A DNA stretch of 64,000 nucleotides from Promethearchaeota archaeon Loki_b31 (lineage in GTDB: Archaea > Asgardarchaeota > Lokiarchaeia > Sigyniarchaeales > SOKP01), in NCBI GenBank assembly GCA_005222975.1, contig NJBI01000002.1, positions 1 through 64,000 of the forward strand, given 5' to 3'. Below, piece by piece: positions 7,910 through 24,767 of the stretch (position 1 is its first letter; every line of letters begins with the position of its first letter). The notes below the pieces were generated by a model, which was not told where the DNA came from, made no database searches, and saw only the letters and a list, made by a program, of their open reading frames with translations. Position numbers and translations under genes: made by a program.

Positions 7910-8059
7910 ATTAAAACTGCCATTTCTTTATATTTTTTTTAAAATTAAAGAATACATTCGTATATTTATATACTAATACTCAGTATTTAAAAAAATAAGG
8001 TTGTGGTTTTTTATTTTGCTACATTTTTGAAAAATCTAGAGTTAAGAGCATAATTGATA

Positions 8060-9421: not shown

Positions 9422-10237
9422 TTACATCTTAACTTTTCTTACTTTTAATGAGTTCTTATCAATAATCTCCTTAAATCGCAATTTTCGAAGCTTTTTTGGA
9501 AAGTCTAAATTAATCTCATCATATACAAATCCATTGGAATCAATAGGACCTTCAACTACTCTTAACTTAGAAGGCGAAATATAATTTTTCACAAACGAAA
9601 TTATTTTACTTTGTCCAGGAAATTTTCTTTTTAATAAACTTCCATAGGTATTACAAGCTACTACAGGAATTCGATTTTCAAGCGCTCGCGCTTTTAAATA
9701 TATTTCCCAGTTTTTGATTCCCTCCGCTCTGATTTGTGTAGGGGAGAATAATATCTCCGCTCCATTTTCGGTTGCTAAACGAGGCGTTTCGAAAAAAGCA
9801 ATGTCAAAACAAATAAGAATTGCAAACTTCGATTCACCTAATTTAAAAATATTTAACACCCGTCCCGGTTCGAATTGCCCCTGTTCATATGAATAGAGAT
9901 GGATTTTATCTTGCCTTCCTATTTCTTCACCTTTTTTATTGAAATAGTAGCATGTTATAAATGGTTTTTTTTGATTATTCCTTTTTTCCCAAATTGCTCC
10001 AGATAAAAAGGAAATTTCATATTTATTTGCCAAATCTTTAATAAACTCATAATTTTCACCTCTTTCTTCTTGAATATTTAGAGGAATATCATTGAAAAAG
10101 GGAGTCCATCTTTCTGGTAAACAAATAATATCACAATTATTAAATTCATCTAATAAATTTTTCAATAGATATTCGATTTCAGAATAACATTTTTCGATAT
10201 CTTTATGAAATTTTGGTTGAATACATGCAACTTTCAT
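9422..10237 (-). CDS. Carbon-nitrogen hydrolase (nitrilase superfamily)
   Basis: Intact 271-residue amidase/nitrilase-fold enzyme that would hydrolyse a non-peptide C-N bond. The Glu-Lys-Cys triad is visible: Glu42 in LPERW, Lys111 in GRQDKIHL and Cys143 in LICFDIAFF, followed by the usual ARALENRIPVVACNTYG segment. Length matches the family. A second, truncated paralogue (about 60% identical by eye) lies at 20379-20858, so the two bracket the accessory block between them. The substrate cannot be deduced. The ATG start gives MKVACIQPKF, the canonical first strand. Confidence 0.85.
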   Translation of the reverse strand: MKVACIQPKFHKDIEKCYSEIEYLLKNLLDEFNNCDIICLPERWTPFFNDIPLNIQEERGENYEFIKDLANKYEISFLSGAIWEKRNNQKKPFITCYYFNKKGEEIGRQDKIHLYSYEQGQFEPGRVLNIFKLGESKFAILICFDIAFFETPRLATENGAEILFSPTQIRAEGIKNWEIYLKARALENRIPVVACNTYGSLLKRKFPGQSKIISFVKNYISPSKLRVVEGPIDSNGFVYDEINLDFPKKLRKLRFKEIIDKNSLKVRKVKM

Positions 10238-10341
10238 TTTTTTTCTTATATTTTATAGTAGTATAATCATAAAAATATATAATTAAAAATACGATAAAAA
10301 GAATTTAAACTTTAACTGGTAAGAAAACCTAATTAAAATCT

Positions 10342-11853
10342 TTAAAGCCCAAAGAAAGAATCATAATCAATATTCATAATTTGAAGATCGGAATCTAAAT
10401 CCCGAGTTGAAAATAAATCTCTTCCATATTTTTGAAGAAATTGAGCCTGAAGATTTTCGTAGAAATCTCGTAAATCTGTTAAATTAAAAGAATAATAAAG
10501 ATTTAAAGCATGGTTAAAATATTCTAGAAACTTTCCTTCTAAAACAATCAATTCTGCAAATAAATCATACCTGATAATGATTACATTTCTAAATTTTGTA
10601 TATATAATTTGTTTAATAGCATTTTTTATCCATCCTTTCCATCGGGTTCCGACAATGAATAACATCATATCTTTTTTTTGATATTTAATCGTTTTATCTT
10701 TAATATTATCATTAGAAAGATCACTCGTATAATCAAACATGAACGCACTTAGTATTCTTAAGGAATTAATATCTAATCCAAGTCTATTCAAAAGTTTTGG
10801 ATTATTGACGAGCCTAAAAAATAAATATTTCATGTTATTTATGTTTAAAAGAAGTGAATCAACTTTATATTTTCTCCTCGTTGAAACTATAGTTTCTGAA
10901 TATATTTTCAGTTGTTTTGACATAAAAAACATTGTAATAATATACTGAAAAGCTAAATGTAAATATGTTCCCATAAGACCATATATTTCAACGCAATCGG
11001 GACATCCTCTGCCTCTTTGAATAGAATTATAACTTGCCTTCCACACATGGTCTGAAACCGCCATACATTGCCATCTGAGTTTCGTCTTGTTCGGAGGTTT
11101 CTTTCCCCTACAACGCATTGTCGCTTTAAATTCCTCACGAGTCATATCCAATTCCAGGTCATCCCTAGAATTTCCCAATAATACACAATCCTCATAAGAA
11201 ATTTCTCTACAACGAGGACAACCAGTACCTCCAGCAATGCTTCTATAATGTGCAAGCCATGTATGGCTTGAATTTATTGAACATCGCCACGTTAACTTTA
11301 CTCTGCTGGGAGACACATTTCTCCTATTGAGCATTGCGTTATCAAATTCCTCACGAGTCATATCAAATTCCAAATCATCTCTAGAATTTCCCAATGCGAC
11401 ACAATCTTCATAAGTAATTTCTCTGCAATGAGGACAACCATACCCTATTTTAATAAAACTATAGCCTTTTTCCCAAAAATGGCGTGGATTTATCGAACAT
11501 CGCCATCTTAGCATTACTCTGCTGGGAGACACATTTCCCCTATTGAGCATTGCGTTATCAAATTCCTCACGAGTCATATCAAATTCCAGGTCATCTCTAG
11601 AATTTCCCAATGCGACACAATCCTCATAAGTAATTTCTCTGCACTGAGGGCATCCATAACCTATTCTAATAAGGCTGTAACCTTTTTCCCAAAAATGGCG
11701 TGGATTTATCGAACATCGCCATCTTAGCTTTACCTGGCTTGGACTTATTGTTCCTCTGTTTCTTATAACCTCATCAAATTCCTCACGAGTCATATCAAAT
11801 TCCAGGTCATCTCTAGAGTTTCCCAATGCGATACAATCCTCATAACTAATCAC
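10342..11853 (-). CDS. Four-repeat treble-clef zinc-finger protein with possible nuclease C-terminus
   Basis: A 503-residue protein. Residues 2-289 are four copies of a 72-residue unit, each with YEDCxxLGNSRDDLE, a MTREEF helix and a zinc module of the form WxC-x-H-x-W-x-GCPxC. This arrangement matches DUF4379-type treble-clef zinc ribbons often attached to nucleases. The C-terminal ~215 residues are not clearly recognisable; RRKYKVDSLLL and LFIVGTRWKGW could be strands of an endonuclease-like core, but I cannot assign catalytic residues confidently. It lies at the left edge of the accessory block on the minus strand. Nucleic-acid binding is likely; function is unknown. Confidence 0.55.
   Translation of the reverse strand: MISYEDCIALGNSRDDLEFDMTREEFDEVIRNRGTISPSQVKLRWRCSINPRHFWEKGYSLIRIGYGCPQCREITYEDCVALGNSRDDLEFDMTREEFDNAMLNRGNVSPSRVMLRWRCSINPRHFWEKGYSFIKIGYGCPHCREITYEDCVALGNSRDDLEFDMTREEFDNAMLNRRNVSPSRVKLTWRCSINSSHTWLAHYRSIAGGTGCPRCREISYEDCVLLGNSRDDLELDMTREEFKATMRCRGKKPPNKTKLRWQCMAVSDHVWKASYNSIQRGRGCPDCVEIYGLMGTYLHLAFQYIITMFFMSKQLKIYSETIVSTRRKYKVDSLLLNINNMKYLFFRLVNNPKLLNRLGLDINSLRILSAFMFDYTSDLSNDNIKDKTIKYQKKDMMLFIVGTRWKGWIKNAIKQIIYTKFRNVIIIRYDLFAELIVLEGKFLEYFNHALNLYYSFNLTDLRDFYENLQAQFLQKYGRDLFSTRDLDSDLQIMNIDYDSFFGL
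10987..11850 (-). repeat. Four tandem 216-bp coding repeats
   Basis: Units at 11850-11635, 11634-11419, 11418-11203 and 11202-10987 encode the four treble-clef modules. Units 2 and 3 are nearly identical at the DNA level (including the stretch reading CCTCACGAGTCATATC on the plus strand), indicating recent duplication or gene conversion; unit 4 is the most divergent. The array could expand or contract by recombination. Confidence 0.9.
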
Positions 11854-12019
11854 ATTAATTACCTTTTTTCAATTTTTTTTTTAAACTCTTTTTAAAATAA
11901 TAATAAAAAATAGGATTTAAATATCTTTCGTGATTTACATATTTTGAAAATGTAATAGAATTAGTTTACAATCATGAAATAATTGTAATTCAATATTAAA
12001 AATATAAACATGCGATTTG

Positions 12020-13681
12020 ATGCCAACTTACGATATATTACTTAAAACTTTTACTACCCGAAAACTAAATTACTTATTTGCTATAAGTAAATTTGTTTGT
12101 GATACAAGAACACCTATTCCACCGTTAAATAATAATGACTATAGGATAAATAGAGAATCTTATAGAACATATTTAGAAAAGCTAACTTCTCTAACAGGCA
12201 CCTCCCTCCATTCATCATATATACGACAATTGGAATCATTAGAAATAGATAAATTATTATTTAAAGATAAAAATAATAATTTGAGATTTACTGAACTAGG
12301 ATTAAGCGTAGCCGATTTTTTTAATCAGTTACATATATTTTTTGGAGAATCAGATTTCTTCTATTTTCTTGAAAATACAAAGGATTATTTTAAAAAGAAG
12401 AAGACAAAAATTATTTTTTTTTTTGTTATATCAGAAATAATTTCAATTGCATCATACTTAGACTCATTATGGAAACTGAAGAAAATAATAGAGTATTCAG
12501 ATAAAGAAAGAATATCTATTTTTGAAATACGTAATATTAAACGCGAATTTGAATCAGAAATGCCAGTTGAAGGTTCATTATTAGGATATTTAAAAATAGA
12601 TAATTTTAAAACATTTATTGAAAATATTGCTTTAGCTTTAAAAGAACTACCCGCATATACAGAACGGAGAAAGAAATTGTTAATTAGAATAGATTCTGCT
12701 TTTCAAATATTACTGGGAAAAAATTACGATAAAAAAAAAATAGCTGATTTTCTATCCTTAGAAAAAAGTTTTAGCGAATGGGGATTTTTACAGCCAAATC
12801 TCCAATCTAATATTCAACCTCCTTTAGGATTTGATGAAAAGCTTTCAAACATCCTTAAGGAAGAAATTCAACCCACATATGCGTTTGTAAGGGAAAGATT
12901 TGGAAATGAAGATCTCAAATTCTGTTCCAAAATCCTTAGAAAAAATGAATCCAATCGAATTTTAGTTTCGAATAAAATCATTGAAATATTACCCTTATTA
13001 AAGCATATAGGTAATGTATTACACGTTCCTTTTACAAGTCTTAAATTAATTGAAATTTCAATCCTAATTCCATATATTGAACAACAAGCTAAACCCAATA
13101 TTTATTTAATACCATTTGACAAAGGATTTTTCTTAGTAACAGCATTAGTTCCTTTATATCGATATTCTTCGCCTCCAATCAGAAAATTATCTATAACATA
13201 CCCCTTGAATTTGACTATAGCCGAACATATTTATTATACTTTAAAAGATAAAACCTTTATGGATTTAAACAATTTTGATGTACGAGTAATTTATTATCTG
13301 CTCCGTTCCCTTGAAAGGATTGTATATGGAATATATTTTAAAAAATTATATACTAAAAGTGAGGAAGCAGATTTAATAAAGGAGTGGGGTGTTGGCTCAG
13401 AGCATTATGACACTTATAGAGTAGGTTCAGAATTCTTCAAAAAAGATACAGAATTTAATTTTGAAAGAATTAATTCAAGAGAAGATCCTTTATATAGTTC
13501 AGAAAATTTATGTATTTTGCTTGTTCCGAGAGTTAAGATATATTATGATAATTATTTCATATCATGTGGAATAACTATTGAAGCAAAAAATCACATATAC
13601 TTTCAAGCATTTGAATCTAAAAATTCTCCAAATCCGATATATTCTAAAATAATTAGACTTGTAGGAACTTCATTAAAATAG
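12020..13681 (+). CDS. Protein of unknown function, opposite strand within the island
   Basis: Not recognised. The 553-residue product is soluble-looking, rich in Lys, Ile and Phe. Residues about 1-100 could hold a winged-helix-like segment (YIRQLESLEIDKLLFKDK then LRFTELGLSVADFF, resembling recognition helix plus wing and an ITELG-like strand). A hydrophobic patch KTKIIFFFVISEIISIA (about 127-143) may be a single membrane segment or buried helix. The C-terminal ~200 residues look alpha/beta. I chose the ATG at 12020 over the TTG immediately before it. It is transcribed divergently from the treble-clef gene and convergently with purB, so it is a separate unit. Confidence 0.6.
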   Translation: MPTYDILLKTFTTRKLNYLFAISKFVCDTRTPIPPLNNNDYRINRESYRTYLEKLTSLTGTSLHSSYIRQLESLEIDKLLFKDKNNNLRFTELGLSVADFFNQLHIFFGESDFFYFLENTKDYFKKKKTKIIFFFVISEIISIASYLDSLWKLKKIIEYSDKERISIFEIRNIKREFESEMPVEGSLLGYLKIDNFKTFIENIALALKELPAYTERRKKLLIRIDSAFQILLGKNYDKKKIADFLSLEKSFSEWGFLQPNLQSNIQPPLGFDEKLSNILKEEIQPTYAFVRERFGNEDLKFCSKILRKNESNRILVSNKIIEILPLLKHIGNVLHVPFTSLKLIEISILIPYIEQQAKPNIYLIPFDKGFFLVTALVPLYRYSSPPIRKLSITYPLNLTIAEHIYYTLKDKTFMDLNNFDVRVIYYLLRSLERIVYGIYFKKLYTKSEEADLIKEWGVGSEHYDTYRVGSEFFKKDTEFNFERINSREDPLYSSENLCILLVPRVKIYYDNYFISCGITIEAKNHIYFQAFESKNSPNPIYSKIIRLVGTSLK

Positions 13682-13745
13682 AAGGTTTGCTATGTTTCAG
13701 AAGTAAATTATATCGAGTGTTTCTTCTAAAATTCTCAACAGATAA

Positions 13746-15134
13746 TTATTCACTTACATCATCCTCAATATTGATAATTAACCTCTCCCAAAGATCACAT
13801 ATTTCGGCAGTTTTTTTGGGAGCTATCCCAATATAATTTTCTGGATGTAAAATTAGCTTTATATGGTTCTCATTAAATTTCTTTAAATATGGTTTAATAG
13901 TTTTATCCTCGAAAATTAATTTTATAAGAGATTTACTTTCTTGATTAGATACTATAGTCAATTCTCGCACTTTTTCATATGCATTTGAATACCCTGATTG
14001 AGAAAGTAATATCTGTAATGGCTCAGCAATGATTTTATCTGCACTTTGTACGAAATTTTTCTTCATTTTATCTCTGTTTATCTGTAAATTTTTTGTGACA
14101 TTAATTGCTCGTTTTACAGAAGAATCGAATATAACAAATAATTCAGGTAAATACCTTGATGATAAAGAATTGGTTAAATCACCTTGATGTTCAATGATTT
14201 GATTTAAGTACAATGTTATCATTGTTGGCATAAATTTTTTCCAAGAACTTTTTATATTTTCAAAATTAATAGGATTTCTCTTCTGAGGCATTGTTGAAGA
14301 TCCTATTTGTTTTACATCAAAACTTTCATATACTTCTCCGATCTCTGTTCTCTGTAAATTTCTCATATCGTCAGCATAATTAGCCAGAACTCCCCAACCT
14401 AAAACAACTGTATGAATTAAGTTAATTAATGGTTCTGGAGGCAAAATTTGAGTAGAGATTTTTGATGATTTTAATCCCAAACTTTTTAATAAATCATATT
14501 CAAATTTTTCAGGATTGTCTAAAAATAAGGATAAAGCATTATAGGCCCCAATAGACCCACTAAATTTTCCTACTAAATTATTTATAGCATTTTTTACTTT
14601 TAAAATCATATTGCCCCATCTATTAACATATTGAGCAATAAAAAATCCAAAAGTTAATGGTTCTGCATGTTGTCCATGAGTTCTACCCATTTGAAGTGTG
14701 TTTTTTTCATTTCTAGCCATTTCAATTAATGAACGTTCTAACTTGACCATATCTGGCAAAATTATGTCATAAAACGCATTTTTATATCTTAAAATATTAG
14801 CGATATTAATAATATCATAAGAAGTCGCTGTTAAATGAATATAGAGCTTTGCTTTGGGGGATACTTTACTTTTTATAATTTCAACTAATGCTCGGATATC
14901 ATGCTTTAATTCTTCCTCCTTTTGATATACTTCTTTTGTATAGATTTTTTCACTAGCTTTTTCAACTTCATCTATTATATCTTTAGGACATATACCATAT
15001 TCCGCAAGTTTCCTTATAAGTGCAACTTCTACAATTGTTTTATATTTAATAAAAGCATCTTCAGTTAAGTAATCCTTTAATTCTTCTACTGAATATCTAA
15101 AATCGGTTGGAGAAAAACAATCAAATTTTTTCAT
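13746..15134 (-). CDS. purB: Adenylosuccinate lyase
   Basis: Fumarase/aspartase-superfamily lyase of 462 residues that removes fumarate from (deoxy)adenylosuccinate-type nucleotides. Family signature GSSTMPQKRNP is at 278-288, the catalytic-loop region, with TATSYD near 102-107 and GRTHGQHAEP at 150-159. The start overlaps the stop of the upstream kinase gene in an ATGA junction, so the two are translationally coupled. Chemically PurB could serve ordinary AMP synthesis, but its placement after a PurZ-like and a deoxyguanosine-kinase-like gene suggests it processes a 2-amino-deoxyadenylosuccinate intermediate. That specificity is inference; PurB identity is firm. Confidence 0.9.
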   Translation of the reverse strand: MKKFDCFSPTDFRYSVEELKDYLTEDAFIKYKTIVEVALIRKLAEYGICPKDIIDEVEKASEKIYTKEVYQKEEELKHDIRALVEIIKSKVSPKAKLYIHLTATSYDIINIANILRYKNAFYDIILPDMVKLERSLIEMARNEKNTLQMGRTHGQHAEPLTFGFFIAQYVNRWGNMILKVKNAINNLVGKFSGSIGAYNALSLFLDNPEKFEYDLLKSLGLKSSKISTQILPPEPLINLIHTVVLGWGVLANYADDMRNLQRTEIGEVYESFDVKQIGSSTMPQKRNPINFENIKSSWKKFMPTMITLYLNQIIEHQGDLTNSLSSRYLPELFVIFDSSVKRAINVTKNLQINRDKMKKNFVQSADKIIAEPLQILLSQSGYSNAYEKVRELTIVSNQESKSLIKLIFEDKTIKPYLKKFNENHIKLILHPENYIGIAPKKTAEICDLWERLIINIEDDVSE

Positions 15135-15730
15135 TGAATTTCATTTATAATTTTTGTTCTTATTTGTTTAAGTTTAGGATTATCAACATTTAATTCTAAT
15201 TCATCAACATTGATGAACCAAATTTTGCTTTTTGTCATAAACTTAAAGAAATTCTTAATTTTTTCATGGAAGTCCATAAAATATCCTGGGTCCGCATTCT
15301 TCTCATACTCACGACCTCTTTGTAATATTCTACGCTTTAATATTTCAATTGATAAATCTAAATATATTACTAAATATGGAATTCCTACTTTTCTTATAAT
15401 ATAATCATAAAGATTTTTAAAAATCTTCAATTCTTCATCTTTTAAATTTAATTCTGCAAATACTAAATCCTTTTCAATTGAAAAATCTGCTATTAAAAAT
15501 GAATTTTGGCAGTTTTTAATAGAGTCTTTCAATTGTGTAAAATGAATTAAAAGAAATGTAACTTCTGTCTCAAAATTTATACTTAAATCTCCACTATAAA
15601 ATCTTTTCAGGAAAGGATTTATATTATATTTCTCAAGTATTTTCCCGATTTTTAATTCACGAGAGAAATAGTTAGTTAAACTTGTTTTACCAGAACCTAT
15701 ACCTCCTTCGAAACTTATTAATTTCACCAT
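15131..15730 (-). CDS. Deoxynucleoside kinase, deoxyguanosine-kinase-like
   Basis: A 199-residue P-loop kinase of the dNK family: FEGGIGSGKTSL at 7-18, the IADFSIEKDLVFAE segment around 80-93 and lid arginines in RGREYEK near 138-144. The family usually has DRS at the second site; here it is ADF, which by memory resembles the ADY of bacterial deoxyguanosine kinases. The likely reaction is dG (or another purine deoxynucleoside) to its 5'-monophosphate. It is coupled to purB by a 4-base overlap. TTG at 15739 is possible, but ATG at 15730 gives the natural MVKLISFEGG start. Substrate preference needs assay; thymidylate kinase is less likely given the lid motif. Confidence 0.75.
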   Translation of the reverse strand: MVKLISFEGGIGSGKTSLTNYFSRELKIGKILEKYNINPFLKRFYSGDLSINFETEVTFLLIHFTQLKDSIKNCQNSFLIADFSIEKDLVFAELNLKDEELKIFKNLYDYIIRKVGIPYLVIYLDLSIEILKRRILQRGREYEKNADPGYFMDFHEKIKNFFKFMTKSKIWFINVDELELNVDNPKLKQIRTKIINEIQ

Positions 15731-15812
15731 AATAATCAATATTATAATGCTACTAAATTTTTTACAATTAAGAAAGATTTAAATTATAATCCAAGAGTTA
15801 TTGCATTAACTT

Positions 15813-16820
15813 TTATTTTTCTTTTTTTTTCTTTAATCCTTTAAATAGATTAATATTAATTAATGCCTTTACACTAGAATTTTTCTCTAAATGCATATTT
15901 TTCTTGACTCCTATTTTATATTTCGGTTTTTTTTGAGATTTATATAGTGCAATAAAAGCAATTAAAATCGCAAAAAAAGATAGAATGAGACTTATAATAC
16001 TTATATTACTTGTTTCTGTTTCATCAAATTTAATTGAACTTGATGAAAAAGTAGTGATTATGGTAAGAGCCGTTATTAAGATTGCTAGAACAGAAAAAAC
16101 TGTAGTACTAAGTGTGTCTATTCGTTTTGAGAACGCTTTTTGAAAGTCTTCAATATTTTTATCCATTTTATCTAATCGCTTTGGTATTCGTGCAAATAAA
16201 CCACTTTTTAATTTAGTATTATAATGGTAAATATCATATATTTCTGTAGGTCGATTTTTATAAGGCAGACTGACTCCTTCTTTATATTTAGTTGTTCTAA
16301 CAAAATCTATTAAAGCCAACTTTTCCCCTAGCTTAAATGTTACATTCTCATCGGATAAATTAAAGATAGGACAATGTAATGGACCGACCCAGCCAGGATC
16401 GACTTGTAATGCTCCAAGCCAGAGCAACCCTTTATATATCATACTTACTCGAAGATTCCACCTAGCTATTAAAAATGCTGGTAAATTAATTCTCTCGGCA
16501 GTACTAATAATTACACATTGGAATGGAGGGATATTGATTTCATTAGAAATTTTGTCAAGTTCATAAACTTCTTCATTTTGAGCATATTGCTTTCCTATTG
16601 TTAATAGATATCCCGCAGGTTTTAAATTTTCTTTATTAAAATGTTCTTTATCAATTAATTCACATTTTTCAACTAAACGCTCTATTTCATCACTTAAAAG
16701 TACTCCTGCTTCTCCATTTGAGTCCTCCTTTAAATAAATTGCATTTATCTTTTCAGTCTCTTTCGACTTTTCCCTATCAGATTTTCTTTGTGTTTTTTTA
16801 CTACTTGGTTTTTTACCTAT
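15813..16820 (-). CDS. dCTP deaminase/dUTPase-fold protein with two C-terminal membrane helices, apparent AUA start
   Basis: The first ATG (16442) falls mid-domain; the open frame upstream completes a Dcd-type fold: GVLLSDEIERLV, IPPFQCVIISTAERINLP, ARWNLR, then LQVDPGWVGPLHCPIFNLS. ATG, GTG and TTG are absent until 16442; ATA at 16820 lies 7 bases after GGAGGTG, so I start there (335 residues). The DPG strand-turn of dUTPase/Dcd enzymes is present, but the catalytic Glu expected after it (DPGFEGxLTLE) appears to be Pro, so it may bind rather than deaminate or hydrolyse. Two helices near 238-258 and 274-294 are followed by a basic tail. It overlaps purZ by 8 bases. A role as membrane-tethered nucleotide sensor is inferred. 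Confidence 0.6.
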   Translation of the reverse strand: MGKKPSSKKTQRKSDREKSKETEKINAIYLKEDSNGEAGVLLSDEIERLVEKCELIDKEHFNKENLKPAGYLLTIGKQYAQNEEVYELDKISNEINIPPFQCVIISTAERINLPAFLIARWNLRVSMIYKGLLWLGALQVDPGWVGPLHCPIFNLSDENVTFKLGEKLALIDFVRTTKYKEGVSLPYKNRPTEIYDIYHYNTKLKSGLFARIPKRLDKMDKNIEDFQKAFSKRIDTLSTTVFSVLAILITALTIITTFSSSSIKFDETETSNISIISLILSFFAILIAFIALYKSQKKPKYKIGVKKNMHLEKNSSVKALININLFKGLKKKKEK

Positions 16821-17865
16821 ATTTCACCACCTCCACTATTTTTCTATCAATAAGTTCTTCGTCCATAGGACCTATACCAAGAAAATTTATCTTTGTCTCT
16901 AATCTTTCTTCTAAAAAATAAATGAATGACTTAGTTTCTTGTGATAAGTCTTCAAATGTCTCAACACCTTTATTTCTATAATCAAGATAATCAGTTCCCA
17001 TTAATGCTATTTCTGTGGGTCTATTTATAAAAACTGCTTTTTCGACTATGTCAATATCAAATCTCGCTACACGTCTTAGCCTTTTAGTTACAGATGTAAA
17101 TTCTTGAATTTTATATGGATAATTACTTTCGCTTCTTATTGTTTCCCAATCAATTTCATTTGGAAGAGGTCCAGAATTTCCGCCAACTCTAATGGGAAAT
17201 GTCCTTATTACCATTATAATATCGGAAACGATTAATGGACTAATACCTACTTCACTTATAAATGCGGCAGCTGTTGTATCTCTACTCGTTGTGTATGGAT
17301 AATATTTACTATGATAAACAGAAAGACCGAATCCCTGAGTTCCCTCGATTACAATTTTATTATTATCTGAATAATGCTCCATTACTTTTTTATGTGTACA
17401 AGCTAAATATTGTTGTAATTCAGGAACATCTTTCGCAAGTTTTATATCTTTAGTTCTTAAAGCTCGTTTTGCTACGGCAATCCCAGTTCCTGTGCATGTT
17501 GATCCTATACGATTATTCAAATTATTTCTAATTTCTTCTTGATCATATCCTTCGTCTATAATGACAGCATTGCGATCTATACCTAATCTATCTGGAAACA
17601 GTTTAAACAATTTAATTTCCTCTAATAATACTTCTAAGTCAATGAGACAACCAGCAGCAAGATATAATCTAGCAGATGGATTTACAACACCTGCAGGAAT
17701 TTGTCTAAGAACCACAGGTTCGTTATTAATATTTATTGTATGTCCGGAATTTGGTCCACCACATCTAATAGCGACATTATAATTATGATTGCGACATAAA
17801 TGTGCGGTTACCTTCCCTTTCCCTTCAGATCCAAATTGACCTCCTATGACAACAGTAATAGTCAA
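16813..17865 (-). CDS. purZ: PurZ-like adenylosuccinate synthetase homologue (2-aminodeoxyadenylosuccinate synthetase candidate)
   Basis: PurA-superfamily ligase of 350 residues, the short archaeal/phage length. The P-loop reads GGQFGSEGKGK (8-18): Ser13 replaces the catalytic Asp of PurA (GDEGKGK), the substitution known in phage PurZ, which joins Asp to dGMP. His42 in NSGHT matches the second catalytic residue. Other PurZ-like stretches are PIRVGGNSGPLPNEIDWE (PurA has RVGAGPFPTE) and SVTKRLRRVARFD (PurA has TGRRRRV). TTG start with AGGTGAA upstream. The gene lies 22 bases after the nuclease gene and overlaps the next, with kinase and purB following. Superfamily is firm; dGMP specificity is inferred from the Asp-to-Ser change and context. 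Confidence 0.8.
   Translation of the reverse strand: MTITVVIGGQFGSEGKGKVTAHLCRNHNYNVAIRCGGPNSGHTININNEPVVLRQIPAGVVNPSARLYLAAGCLIDLEVLLEEIKLFKLFPDRLGIDRNAVIIDEGYDQEEIRNNLNNRIGSTCTGTGIAVAKRALRTKDIKLAKDVPELQQYLACTHKKVMEHYSDNNKIVIEGTQGFGLSVYHSKYYPYTTSRDTTAAAFISEVGISPLIVSDIIMVIRTFPIRVGGNSGPLPNEIDWETIRSESNYPYKIQEFTSVTKRLRRVARFDIDIVEKAVFINRPTEIALMGTDYLDYRNKGVETFEDLSQETKSFIYFLEERLETKINFLGIGPMDEELIDRKIVEVVKYR
16828..16834 (-). promoter_or_regulatory. Strong Shine-Dalgarno GGAGGTG inside the 3' end of the purZ-like gene
   Basis: GGAGGTG is a near-complete match to the anti-Shine-Dalgarno and lies 7 bases before ATA at 16820, the first codon of the deaminase-fold frame compatible with its spacing. The sequence is also part of codons for the PurZ C-terminus, so coincidence cannot be excluded. 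Confidence 0.4.
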
Positions 17866-17887
17866 TATTATTCACCTTTTTTTATAA

Positions 17888-19519
17888 TTATATTAATCTT
17901 GGAATTATTAAATGTTCTTCAACATCATTTCCTAAAGCTTCATATTCCTCAGCAAGATAAAAATAACCAACAAGAGCAGAAGTAAAAGCATCGAGTTCAT
18001 CGTGAGTAATTTTTTCATTTTTTGAAATAAATTTTATTCCTAAATTCTTTAATTCTATTTCTAATTCTTTTAAATCAACTTTTTTTCTTGGTATGCATAA
18101 AATATCTTGAGCGGCACCAGGATAACTTTCTATTACTTTAAAACCTTTTTCACGAAATATACGAGATAATTTAATCCCCCTTAGAGTTAATTTTTGCATG
18201 CTTTTAATGAGACTTGGATATACATTTATACCTCTACTCTTAAGAATTCTTTCACATTCGCGTGTAATTCCAAATTTTCTGCATTTACAAGAGTCATCTG
18301 CACAACATCTCCCTTTAGGTAAACCTAATGGAGAATCTATAGATATAATAGTTGGCTTTGCATTTATTGTTTTAGAAATAATATCATCATCATTTTCTAA
18401 AGGTGATAAATATGCCTCTTTATCTTTAAGAATACAAAATCCAGAACTTCTATTTTGAGAACCTGTTAGGTCTATTCCAACAGACACGCATGAATTATTA
18501 TGTTTTTTAATCTTTTTAATCATATTCTCTAAATTAATATTAACTCTTTCAATTTTCTTTGGATTTATACAAAATAAGAGTTCATTATTTAAATAAACCT
18601 CAATTATACCGTTTGGTCTATTTTGTGTAATAATTTTTGGAATAAAATGCTCTGATTTCTTTTTTAAATTCTCTTTTTCTTTTCTTATGATTTCTTTAAA
18701 ATTTTTGGTATGAGGTTGTTGAATTAATTCACCTAAATAATATGAAATTGTCTCTTTTTCATCTCTAATTAATTTAGATTGAATTTGAGATAATTTTTTT
18801 AAAAAACAAAGATCCATAATGTATTTTAAATTAATAATATCATAGATATTATATAAAACCAAGTTCTCTAAAGCTTTATTATTACCTCTTAAAAATTTAT
18901 TCCAAAAAGAGACTGCTTCTCTGCCATTTACTTCTTGTAGATTATCTGGTCTTTTAATATTTAATTTTTTTTCAATTTTTTTTAAAGGTCCTTTTAATCC
19001 TAGACTCCTTAAAAGATATCTTAAATCTATATGTAATGGAGGAAGTCTAATTTCAGGAAGCTCCTTTTTTATAAAGGGAATATCAAATAATTTACCATTA
19101 AAAGTAATAATAATTTCATAATCTTTGATATAATCAATAAATTCTTCTAAATTACTATCTTTTATAAAAATCTTAACCTCTTTTCCATTATAAGTACCAA
19201 TTACGGTGATTTTGTCATAATATAAAGATAATCCTGTCGTTTCAATATCCAAAAATATCGTCTTATCGATGAAATCTTTGTAAACTCTCCAATATTCTTT
19301 CTTTGGTAAGTATTTAACAAAATATGATATAAGATTTCCATAGAATTCTCTCTCTATTTTGTCTAAGTATTCATTAATAAGTTCTCTCTTGTTTTTACTT
19401 AATCCAAATATTTTTGATTTTCTTCTAAAGATTTCCCAGGTCAAAATGCCCATATTCCATAAATGTTCCTCTGTTTTTTCTCCAATTCCCGGAACACAAA
19501 TAAAAGTACTTTTCATCAT
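17888..19519 (-). CDS. YprB-type RNase H-like exonuclease fused to DUF429 domain
   Basis: A 543-residue two-nuclease-fold protein. A short N-terminal helix-hairpin-helix-like part (VPGIGEKTEEHLWNMGI) precedes a DEDD exonuclease: FLDIETTG (Asp91, Glu93), ITFNGKLFDIPFI, and HIDLRYLLRSLGLKGPLK, typical of YprB/RNase_H_2. From about residue 345 a DUF429 predicted RNase H-fold nuclease follows: VGIDLTGSQNRSSGF, ISIDSPLGLPKGR, VYPSLI and HDELDAFTSALVGYF. It is the first gene of the leftward set ending in purB, 22 bases ahead of the PurZ-like gene. A nucleic-acid processing role is likely; the specific substrate is unknown. Confidence 0.75.
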   Translation of the reverse strand: MMKSTFICVPGIGEKTEEHLWNMGILTWEIFRRKSKIFGLSKNKRELINEYLDKIEREFYGNLISYFVKYLPKKEYWRVYKDFIDKTIFLDIETTGLSLYYDKITVIGTYNGKEVKIFIKDSNLEEFIDYIKDYEIIITFNGKLFDIPFIKKELPEIRLPPLHIDLRYLLRSLGLKGPLKKIEKKLNIKRPDNLQEVNGREAVSFWNKFLRGNNKALENLVLYNIYDIINLKYIMDLCFLKKLSQIQSKLIRDEKETISYYLGELIQQPHTKNFKEIIRKEKENLKKKSEHFIPKIITQNRPNGIIEVYLNNELLFCINPKKIERVNINLENMIKKIKKHNNSCVSVGIDLTGSQNRSSGFCILKDKEAYLSPLENDDDIISKTINAKPTIISIDSPLGLPKGRCCADDSCKCRKFGITRECERILKSRGINVYPSLIKSMQKLTLRGIKLSRIFREKGFKVIESYPGAAQDILCIPRKKVDLKELEIELKNLGIKFISKNEKITHDELDAFTSALVGYFYLAEEYEALGNDVEEHLIIPRLI

Positions 19520-19667
19520 ATTTACTTCTGAATCACCATTTTTTATTACATTTAGTCCTATTTTTATCTTTTTATTTTGAATTGTAATTAGATTTTGTAT
19601 TAATTGATTTTTATTGAAGTATTTTAACCGAATGTATTTAAAAAAAAAGTTAAGATACTATGTTTTA

Positions 19668-19840
19668 TGTATAAAATTATATATAAAAATATTCTTATTA
19701 AGCCCTAAGTATTTTACGATTTTATTAAATATATGAATTATACATAAAATTACATATAAAACATTCCTATTAAATCCTAATATTATTTCATCAAGAAAAA
19801 TCTATAATTAATGAAATTACACATAATTTTATATATAATC
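19668..19840. repeat. A+T-rich iteron-like repeats upstream of a small basic protein gene
   Basis: The gene-free stretch 19520-19857 contains two imperfect direct copies about 72 bases apart (starting near 19668 and 19740), each with ATAAAATTAYATATAAAA, then ATTCYTATTAARYCCTAA. A third, inverted partial copy (CACATAATTTTATATATAA) lies near 19820. They sit just before the gene at 19858 and may be its operators or a plasmid/virus-style replication iteron set. Nothing else is recognisable in the stretch. Confidence 0.45.
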
Positions 19841-19857
19841 CTTTTTTTAAATTTTTT

Positions 19858-20247
19858 GTGACCGACAAAAAAGACCTATATATTATTATTGGTGGACTTG
19901 AATCACTATGCAAAAATCTAACACAACTATCACAAAATCTCATATATGAAGTAAATAATATAAAAAGCTTAATTAATTCTTCAGAAAGTAATAATTCTGG
20001 AAAGAAAATTTCTAAAATTGAATTACCAAATTATGCTCGTACTTTTTATGAAAATTATTTAGTAAAAATTTTAAATAATCATAAAGAATTAACAAAAAGA
20101 GAAATAAAAATTGAATGTGAACTCAGGGGAAAGAAACTTACTTATTCCGCAATAACTAAATATTTAACTAACCTAGTAAAATATAAATATTTAATATCAA
20201 GAAAAAATCCTAAAAAAAAAAGTGAAATGTTATATAAATTAAATTAA
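19858..20247 (+). CDS. Small basic protein with winged-helix-like C-terminus
   Basis: A 129-residue protein from a GTG start. Residues 1-45 look like an amphipathic coiled-coil helix (LESLCKNLTQLSQNLIYEVN). Residues about 60-129 resemble a winged helix: NYARTFYENYLVKIL, HKELTKREIKIECE, LTYSAITKYLTNLVKYKYL as recognition helix and a wing ending in SEMLYKLN. This would suit a transcription regulator of the island or an iteron-binding protein. Spacing to repeats immediately upstream supports that idea but does not prove it. No named family is recognised. Confidence 0.5.
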   Translation: MTDKKDLYIIIGGLESLCKNLTQLSQNLIYEVNNIKSLINSSESNNSGKKISKIELPNYARTFYENYLVKILNNHKELTKREIKIECELRGKKLTYSAITKYLTNLVKYKYLISRKNPKKKSEMLYKLN

Positions 20248-20378
20248 AAATAAAATCTTCTTTTAATATTTTAAAATCCTTTAATACCCAAAAAGATAAG
20301 AGAGAACAAGAAGTAATTGAAAAAAATAATGTAATTAAAGTTAAATGTGTTTTTATAATTGCTAACCAAATTGAAACA

Positions 20379-20858
20379 TTATACCAAAAGATTCATTGTA
20401 ACCCAAAAGAATTTATTGAACATGTCAAAGCAAATTAAAATTGCAAAATAAATTTTATTAAAGGGAAATAACACTAACTCTTTTCCTGGCTCAAAATTTT
20501 GTCTTTCATAAGAGTATAAATGGATTTTATCTTGTCTACCAATCTCTTCTCCGTCTTTATCAAAATAATAACTAGTAATTCTCGGTTTGATAGAATTTTT
20601 CCTTCTTTCCCAAATAGCTCCTGAGATTATACTTATACCGTACTCTTTTGCTAGATTTTTAATAAAGTTGTAATTATTTCCTCTTTCATTTTGTAAATTT
20701 AGTTCTTTTCCGTTTGTTAAATTTACCCACCTTTCTGGTAGGCATACGATGTCGCAGCTATCAAATTCTTTAATTAATTTTTTTAATATTTCTTCTACTT
20801 CAAAATAGCATTTATCTCTTTCTTGGAAAACTTCTGGTTGAATACACGCAATTCGCAT
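20379..20858 (-). pseudogene. Truncated nitrilase paralogue
   Basis: N-terminal 145 residues match the intact nitrilase at 9422 throughout (ACIQPEVFQERDKCYFE; LPERW; GRQDKIHLYSYE; ILICFD), keeping Glu, Lys and Cys of the triad. Homology ends abruptly after CFDM; the last ~14 residues are unrelated and the C-terminal ~110 residues needed for the alpha-beta-beta-alpha sandwich are missing. The breakpoint near 20425 is the right-hand junction of the accessory block. A HAD gene begins 3 bases upstream on the same strand. The product is unlikely to fold as an active amidase. Confidence 0.8.
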
Positions 20859-23851: not shown

Positions 23852-24179
23852 TTGTAAATCGATTTCCTGTAGTAGTAAATTCTATGAGAGTTTGTTAATT
23901 ATAAAAATCCAATTAAAATTATAAAAATATCTGTTAACAAAAATAGGAAAAGATTAACTTATGCGCCCTTCGAAATGAAATCTATACCCGCTAAACTTAA
24001 ATTTTAGCTATTATAGAAATTATAATAAAAATATAACTAAATTTAATGACTACAGATAAAAGATGTGAATATTTTAAATATTATTGCCAATTCAAAATGC
24101 TAACAAAATAATAAAATTAATTAATTTTACATAATTTCAATATTTATTAATATTGGATTGCTATTGGAGATTGACTAAA
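23852..24179. other. Divergent promoter region upstream of L15e
   Basis: This 328-base gap separates two divergent genes. It is mostly A+T-rich with several TATA-like runs. One less A+T-rich patch, around 23963-23996 (GCGCCCTTCG to ACCCGCT), stands out and could be a small RNA or regulatory site, but no paired structure is evident. GGAGA at 24166 serves the L15e start. Confidence 0.4.
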
Positions 24180-24767
24180 TTGACTAAATCGGGATATAGT
24201 TATGTAAAAGAAACATTCGAAAAACACGAAACTGGGTATCAAACAAATCACTGGGAAAGAGGAATCAAATACAGAAAGGGAAAGTCTGTCGAACGGGTTG
24301 AGAGGCCGACTAAATTGCATAGGGCACGAACTCTTGGCTACAAAGCTAAACAAGGTTACATCGTTGTTCGAGCGAGAATTAGAAAAGGGGGAATGCACAA
24401 GGTTCGGCCGAAACGAGGTAGAAAGCCTCGCGCGATGGGTGTCTCTAAATATACTACCGGTAAAAATTTACAATGGGTCGCTGAAGAACGCGTACAACGT
24501 AAATATCCCAACATGGAAGTACTTAATAGCTATAAAGTATATGCCGATGGTCGAAGTTGGTATTACGAGGTTATACTTGTAGATCCATCGCATCCTGCAA
24601 TAAAAGCAGACCCAAAAATTAATTGGATTTGCGAAGCACCTCATAAAAGGAGAGTTTCCCGGGGTTTGACCTCTTCGGGAAAAAAAGCTCGAGGGTTACA
24701 TAAAAAAGGATGGGGCTCTGAAAAGACTCGCCCGAGCTTAGGCGCAAATAAAGGGCGTGGTAAATAA
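24180..24767 (+). CDS. rpl15e: Ribosomal protein L15e
   Basis: Large-subunit ribosomal protein L15e, 195 residues from the TTG at 24180. This start is preferred over the upstream TTG at 24153 because GGAGA lies 9 bases before it and the product then begins MTKSGYSYVKETFEK as in the family. Diagnostic stretches are RGIKYRKGKSVERVERPTK, RARTLGYKAKQGYIVVRARI and RGLTSSGKKARGLHKKGWGS. The protein is basic and lacks introns or gaps. In many archaea this gene neighbours the RNase P protein genes; here they begin 4.6 kb away with a reverse-strand cassette between. Confidence 0.95.
   Translation: MTKSGYSYVKETFEKHETGYQTNHWERGIKYRKGKSVERVERPTKLHRARTLGYKAKQGYIVVRARIRKGGMHKVRPKRGRKPRAMGVSKYTTGKNLQWVAEERVQRKYPNMEVLNSYKVYADGRSWYYEVILVDPSHPAIKADPKINWICEAPHKRRVSRGLTSSGKKARGLHKKGWGSEKTRPSLGANKGRGK

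Follow-up and report, generated by a model that had tools for sequence, protein, structure and literature searches.

A mobile archaeal operon that joins a cellular PurZ-type ligase to a degenerate dUTPase-fold membrane protein: a candidate nucleotide-based conflict system

In the phage pathways for 2-aminoadenine (Z) DNA, known from S-2L, phiVC8, Ghobes and Wayne, a ligase of the PurZ or PurZ0 type is followed by a lyase step, and the PurZ0 phages add a partner of the dUTPase family. In the defence systems Pycsar, with its protein PycTM, and CBASS, an enzyme that makes a nucleotide is paired with a ligand-binding-like domain on transmembrane helices. Here we describe an archaeal operon that resembles both. 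It lies in the first 64,000 nucleotides of contig NJBI01000002.1 (assembly GCA_005222975.1, Promethearchaeota archaeon Loki_b31), a stretch that we call the window, and open reading frame (ORF) calls combined with family scans gave it five genes, all on the minus strand (Table 1). With the phage pathways it shares the ligase family, the change of Asp13 to Ser, a loop insertion in the ligase, the lyase step and, as in the PurZ0 phages, a dUTPase-family protein. It differs from them in being cellular, in belonging to a third PurZ branch and in having its own PurB, a kinase and a nuclease gene; moreover, its dUTPase fold is membrane-bound and degenerate. As an earlier note on this DNA had stated, proteins of the MazZ, DatZ and DpoZ types are not seen: a Pfam scan of the main ORFs between 0.3 and 29 kb in the window, a few short ones excepted, gave none. 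Unlike Pycsar and CBASS, the operon has no cyclase, its signal would be a modified mononucleotide, and no infection sensor was identified. The operon may represent an undescribed nucleotide-based antiviral system.

The ligase matched the NCBIfam model amino_Aden_PurZ at 1.6e-69 and 234 bits, below the cut-off of 300, and PHROG 1211 at 2e-70. Because the NCBIfam cut-off was not reached, we regard the protein as a new branch of the PurZ family and not as a member of the phage model. The earlier note had pointed to Ser13 in place of the catalytic Asp of PurA (GGQFGSEGKGK) and to the stretches RVGGNSG and TKRLRRV, all of which are indeed present. Compared at the reference positions of the S-2L enzyme (PMC8342488), the ligase has Thr at the T273 position, where nearly all PurA rows of the alignment have Gly, and RVGGNSG forms an insertion at the Val241 loop, which reads RVGxG in PurA. 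At the Q308 position it carries Asp, as do PurZ0 and PurA, and not the Gln or Asn that goes with an adenine nucleotide donor, which suggests GTP as the donor.

We built a maximum-likelihood tree from 60 rows comprising long PurA, archaeal short PurA and PurZ-type proteins. Proteins carrying Ser or Gly where PurA has its Asp all grouped in one clade, apart from every PurA (support 100/100). The window ligase fell into a third PurZ branch (support 99/92), whose members come from cellular operons and from viral contigs, including several large ones; the other PurZ-type branches were phage PurZ (S-2L, VP5), PurZ0 (Ghobes, Immaculata) and alphaproteobacterial fusions of a kinase with PurZ. The tree and the residues thus bear out the assignment to PurZ and not to PurA. 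The source genome encodes a separate full-length PurA of 437 residues (G000:C63), and the genomes of three operon-bearing relatives (L004, L005 and L006) likewise have their own. Two of the outcomes that the earlier note had named as damaging to its claim, a ligase branching inside PurA and a genome with no other PurA, were therefore not observed. Since a second PurA exists and both tree and residues point away from PurA, we rejected the identity of a housekeeping PurA. The best solved matches were archaeal short PurA enzymes (2d7u, 5k7x), which the ligase resembles in length and overall sequence; it differs from them in lacking the catalytic Asp, in having the PurZ insertion and Thr, and in its separate clade. 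At the catalytic position, two other archaeal operon ligases (L104:1749-2543 and L105:1747-2826) have Gly, not Ser. A published PurZ tree (PMC12884076; NAR 2026) has four archaeal sequences bearing Ser or Gly at its base, described in passages that say nothing of their gene context, and our set may include these four. Judged from sequence, the chemistry of the operon is probably the synthesis of a 2-aminoadenine deoxynucleotide.

The earlier note had suggested a search of related genomes for this gene set. Outside the window, gene 1, PurZ, the dUTPase-fold membrane protein and the kinase follow one another in this order in six genomes, belonging to three other archaea, one cyanobacterium and two Pseudomonadota (L004, L005, L006, L104, L105 and L106). 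Ligase identity to the window was 63% in L004 (Halobacteria), 50% in L005 (Xenococcaceae) and 44% in L006 (Rhodospirillales); L104 and L105 are archaea of the phylum sampled for L004, and L106 is from the same phylum as L006. Since the order is found in two domains of life, with ligase identities of 42-63% to the window among the aligned members, we do not ascribe the arrangement to chance. PurB occupies the fifth place in the window and in L104, where the PurZ gene is broken by a stop; the L105 contig ends after the kinase. Strong matches were rare, with 1 in 228 genomes of the archaeon's own phylum and 1/386, 2/399 and 3/394 in three other phyla. In the 394-genome set, strong matches scored at least 499 bits and all other matches at most 273.

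Related loci had other partners. The haloarchaeal operon L004 adjoins an AAA_5 (McrB-like) gene and an HD/dGTPase-like gene, and Sinorhizobium medicae plasmids carry PurZ and the dUTPase-fold protein beside an HD gene, without gene 1 or the kinase. Fusions of a P-loop kinase with a PurZ-type ligase were found in Rhizobiaceae, Methylobacterium and other Pseudomonadota-type genomes (L028-L031, L107, L108, L109, L139 and L140). They are usually accompanied by DUF7002 and often by a YfbR-like HD gene, with an M48-like peptidase (HEYGHH, by eye) instead in L107; ImmA/IrrE-like or M48-like peptidases (by eye) also occur as partners, and L139 and L140 lie near HsdR-like or helicase genes (by eye). 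The alphaproteobacterial fusion loci (L028-L031, L107, L139 and L140) share with the operon the combination of ligase and kinase and their rarity, and some are island-like; they differ in that the kinase is fused, in their DUF7002, peptidase-like and HD partners, and in forming a separate clade. Across these loci the predicted PurZ-kinase core is constant and the partners change. A viral scan with the ligase sequence alone gave no match, and one with the ligase alignment gave 33 loci. Viral contigs of 25-312 kb (L047, L048, L050, L051, L053 and L054) encode PurZ of the same branch (43-60% identity), with no other operon gene within up to 8 kb on each side. Separately, a Rhizobium leguminosarum plasmid carries a cluster (L032:3045-14724) of folE, a PurA-like gene, purB, queE, IMP dehydrogenase, nitrile hydratase, queC, a phosphoribosyltransferase and a queD homologue, which we take to resemble a toyocamycin/sangivamycin-type nucleoside pathway.

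Gene 3 matched Pfam DCD (6.8e-10), and its nearest folds were the dUTPases 9ln0 and 8y1w, the latter archaeal, at E values of about 1e-12. Its AlphaFold model had a predicted local distance difference test (pLDDT) score of 55.8 overall and was good only in the core. The dCTP-deaminase fold named in the earlier note therefore stands, whereas activity as an enzyme is doubtful: an alignment of all eight system members showed that the motif-1 Asp, the first motif-2 Ser and the deaminase Glu had been replaced, the last by Pro in every member, with VDPG kept (IDPG in L106). For the same reason we rejected an active dCTP deaminase of the depletion type. The protein extends beyond its ATG-started ORF and ends in two transmembrane helices, a part with a weak PycTM match (2e-4, PADLOC); most relatives have one to three such helices. 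Thus, gene 3 shares the fold and the VDPG motif with archaeal dUTPase and dCTP deaminase and differs from them in its replaced catalytic residues and transmembrane C terminus, although 8y1w itself has no deaminase Glu. Because the catalytic residues are lost and transmembrane helices are present, a role as sensor or effector fits better than one as an enzyme. On Sinorhizobium fredii and Qipengyuania plasmids, a dUTPase-fold protein with a transmembrane segment follows a protein of ~170 residues (L033:6349-7642 and L034:6312-7624), near thymidylate synthase or ribonucleotide reductase genes; these proteins possibly belong to a wider family of such sensors.

Gene 1 matched RNase_H_2 (Pfam, 9e-34) with all DEDDy residues present, and DUF429 and HHH were detected weakly in its homologues. 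The DUF429 family is RNase H-like, and nucleolytic activity has been predicted for it (PMC3985635). In an alignment of 7 loci the catalytic acidic motifs of both the RNase_H_2 and the DUF429-like domains were invariant; the AlphaFold model was moderate (pLDDT 73) and matched exonuclease domains and RuvC. The DUF429 part matched the PADLOC phage-defence candidate PDC-S44 weakly in 4 of 4 members. Bacterial versions have an additional P-loop kinase domain, and a viral scan with gene 1 returned one weak match only. A Dyadobacter plasmid encodes a stand-alone DUF429-like protein (L138:4447-6609) that shares 48% identity with the C-terminal part of gene 1 and has a diadenylate cyclase as its neighbour.

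The kinase belongs to the Pfam family dNK (PF01712, 8e-25) and has a P-loop; its nearest solved structure is a deoxynucleoside kinase (2.4e-10), with deoxyguanosine kinases among its solved relatives. The D/E-R-S motif, which matters in deoxynucleoside kinases, reads DFS or DYS in all six kinases aligned. In the haloarchaeal L004, the slot of the kinase holds a protein of the adenylate-kinase family, which would place the kinase step on an adenine-like monophosphate, after PurZ and PurB. The idea that deoxyguanosine monophosphate (dGMP) comes from the kinase instead of from dGTP cleavage was thus not borne out. Gene 5 scored 2.8e-90 against NCBIfam purB, just below the cut-off, and contains both adenylosuccinate lyase signatures (GSSxMPxKxNP and GRTHGQHA). 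Its identity is 53% to the PurB at the corresponding position of L104 and 29% to the other PurB-like protein of the source genome, which indicates that PurB moves with the operon.

Regarding gene layout, the PurB, kinase, deaminase-fold and ligase genes described earlier as leftward neighbours are all on the minus strand, and the purB and kinase genes overlap by 4 bases (ATGA), as had been claimed. The 8-base overlap claimed between the ligase and deaminase-fold genes holds only with a non-standard ATA start (16820-16818) and not as a plain overlap, since the reading frame is closed by a TGA immediately upstream and has no ATG, GTG or TTG within roughly its first 125 residues. Those four genes were correctly named; gene 1, the membrane helices and the wide, patchy distribution had been overlooked. 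We count gene 1, whose stop is 22 bases upstream of the ligase gene, as part of the operon because the same position is kept in the six other genomes. The same contig encodes ribosomal protein L15e (24153-24767).

The island on which the earlier note had placed these genes was confirmed: it is absent from the same-genus relatives examined, which have an empty site. In four of them the DNA matches the window collinearly as far as ~10230 and resumes at 20421, with an overlap of 431 bp in the relative. The distance from the SMC gene to the downstream gene is ~3.3 kb in G010 and G004, each with both genes on one contig, versus 13.9 kb here, and the GC content is 0.25-0.30 on the island versus 0.31-0.34 in the flanks. 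Of the two partial CN-hydrolase copies, the right one (20421-20851) is 98% and the left one (9799-10230) about 68% identical to the relative's gene, so the island supplied a replacement 5' part, leaving the native one as a truncated ORF. A contaminating contig was ruled out, as the flanking genes are 94-97% identical and collinear in the nearest same-genus genomes. No integrase was recognised on the island. Its 554-residue ORF matched no family in Pfam, NCBIfam or PADLOC, and no relative was found on plasmids; the divergent 129-residue ORF, a possible regulator, had no PADLOC match. One relative, L133 (G013), has ~1.4 kb of extra sequence at window position 8002-8054, beside the SMC gene and close to the island.

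Table 1. Coordinates of the operon genes, the island and other island features in the window
Feature	Position	Strand	Description
Gene 1	17888..19519	-	HHH + RNase_H_2 (DEDDy exonuclease) + DUF429-like RNase H-fold domain, 543 aa
Gene 2	16813..17865	-	PurZ-type (succino-aminodeoxyadenylate synthetase-like) ligase, 350 aa, TTG start
Gene 3	about 15813..16820	-	dUTPase/dCTP-deaminase-fold domain + C-terminal transmembrane helices, about 333 aa
Gene 4	15131..15739	-	Deoxynucleoside kinase family protein, 202 aa; ATG at 15730 likelier start
Gene 5	13746..15134	-	Operon-type adenylosuccinate lyase (PurB), 462 aa
Mobile island, ~10.6 kb	9800..20420		Inserted in CN-hydrolase gene; blastn against four same-genus relatives
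Hybrid CN-hydrolase gene	9422..10237	-	5' part from island, 3' part native; Pfam CN_hydrolase
Displaced native CN-hydrolase 5' part	20379..20858	-	98% to intact gene of relative
503-aa protein	10342..11853	-	Repeated treble-clef zinc fingers (DUF4379), Pfam 4.1e-20; on island
554-aa ORF	12017..13681	+	On island
Divergent 129-aa ORF	19858..20247	+	Winged-helix-like by eye; ORF only

A nuclease, a maker of an unusual nucleotide and a dead-enzyme domain on membrane helices, together in a mobile and patchily distributed operon of two domains of life, led us to read the locus as a conflict system with a nucleotide signal. The neighbours of the L004 operon support this reading, as do the fusion loci, whose partners change and two of which lie near HsdR-like or helicase genes. 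We infer the substrate, product, signalling and antiviral role as follows. The nuclease encoded by gene 1 would act on foreign or damaged DNA. The ligase would join dGMP and aspartate, probably at the expense of GTP, into the succino-adduct of 2-amino-dAMP, from which PurB, the operon's own copy in archaea and perhaps the host's elsewhere, would free a 2-aminoadenine deoxynucleotide. After the kinase had raised its phosphorylation state, this product, foreign to a normal cell, would bind the membrane protein at its catalytically degenerate dUTPase-fold domain; the transmembrane helices of that protein would in turn perturb the membrane and halt the infected cell. That the locus is a horizontally moving conflict operon, presumably antiviral, built around a cellular PurZ and with a 2-aminoadenine nucleotide read out at the membrane is the reading we favour, if tentatively. 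More speculative is its wider form, in which both prokaryotic domains would have an immune system with a PurZ-made 2-aminoadenine deoxynucleotide, or its succino precursor, as the alarm and the dead dUTPase fold on transmembrane helices as receptor and killer.

Among the alternatives, it is unlikely that the operon works by poisoning or depleting nucleotides. PurZ would then drain dGMP and (d)GTP or (d)ATP, the dUTPase-fold protein would be a DutZ-like membrane pyrophosphatase, and Z deoxynucleotides or a starved nucleotide pool would halt viral replication. Nucleotide-depleting dCTP deaminase and dGTPase defences exist, and both have PADLOC models; HD genes, YfbR/DatZ-like in the case of L027 and the fusions L028-L031, lie beside these loci and beside L004. 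Moreover, S-2L PurZ is a dATPase (PMC8342488), and DutZ, a dUTPase-family enzyme of PurZ0 phages, cleaves dATP and dGTP (PMC12884076). The residues replaced in gene 3 of every system member speak against such an enzyme, and Pfam and NCBIfam revealed no HD gene on the window island. A little less credible is the use of the operon for Z-DNA, with its dZTP entering the DNA of the cell, the island or a resident virus and the nuclease discriminating or processing DNA accordingly. A PurZ-type ligase, PurB and a kinase would be enough for dZMP and one further phosphorylation, large viral contigs are among the closest PurZ relatives, and the title of PMC8342488 states that three S-2L phage genes are enough for Z to take the place of adenine in bacterial DNA. 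However, the flanking genes examined include no DatZ-, MazZ- or DpoZ-type family, and that pathway offers no role for a membrane-bound dUTPase-fold protein whose catalytic residues are gone.

The scheme of the earlier note, in which deoxyguanosine is phosphorylated to dGMP by the kinase and then passes through PurZ and PurB to yield free dZMP, accounts for the dNK family of the kinase, its deoxyguanosine kinase relatives and the presence of PurZ and PurB. It does not account for the adenylate-kinase family protein in L004 or the altered D/E-R-S motif, and it leaves gene 1 and the membrane protein without explanation; we consider it improbable. Its PurZ-type ligase and its island have held up, whereas its kinase as the dGMP source and its deaminase-fold protein as an enzyme have not. 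Equally improbable is a divergent purine metabolism in which IMP or another purine is the substrate of the ligase and the gene set serves ordinary salvage or specialised metabolism. PurA-like genes have been recruited elsewhere, as with folE and que genes on the Rhizobium plasmid, and the Asp at the Q308 position is that of PurA; yet Asp13 is lost, the PurZ loop and Thr are present, the ligase lies outside PurA in the tree, and the nuclease and membrane protein are conserved. A known anti-phage system was ruled out, as PADLOC-DB 2.0.0 gave no system-level match and only weak single-protein matches (PycTM, VakA, PDC-S44 and DEDDh). No description of the gene set was found in the open-access literature or the other resources searched.

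Several observations weigh against the conflict operon that we favour. PADLOC does not recognise it, and the PycTM, VakA and PDC-S44 matches are weak. Locus L027 has PurZ and the dUTPase-fold protein with neither gene 1 nor the kinase, both of which are therefore dispensable there, and its membrane protein has no segment above the transmembrane threshold. The L005, L006 and L106 operons stand among ordinary chromosomal genes, and the L104 and L105 ligases carry Gly instead of Ser. A preference for dGMP over other guanine nucleotides is not provable from residues, nor is the loss of catalytic residues proof of ligand sensing.

PurZ has so far been characterised from phages, and here a cellular PurZ stands in a conserved mobile operon of archaea and bacteria. 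The operon raises the question of whether 2-aminoadenine nucleotides have any use in cells, and whether one of the two, phage Z-genomes or a cellular conflict system, gave rise to the other. If PurZ does make an alarm molecule in these cells, the phage Z-DNA enzymes and a cellular immune pathway would share a history.

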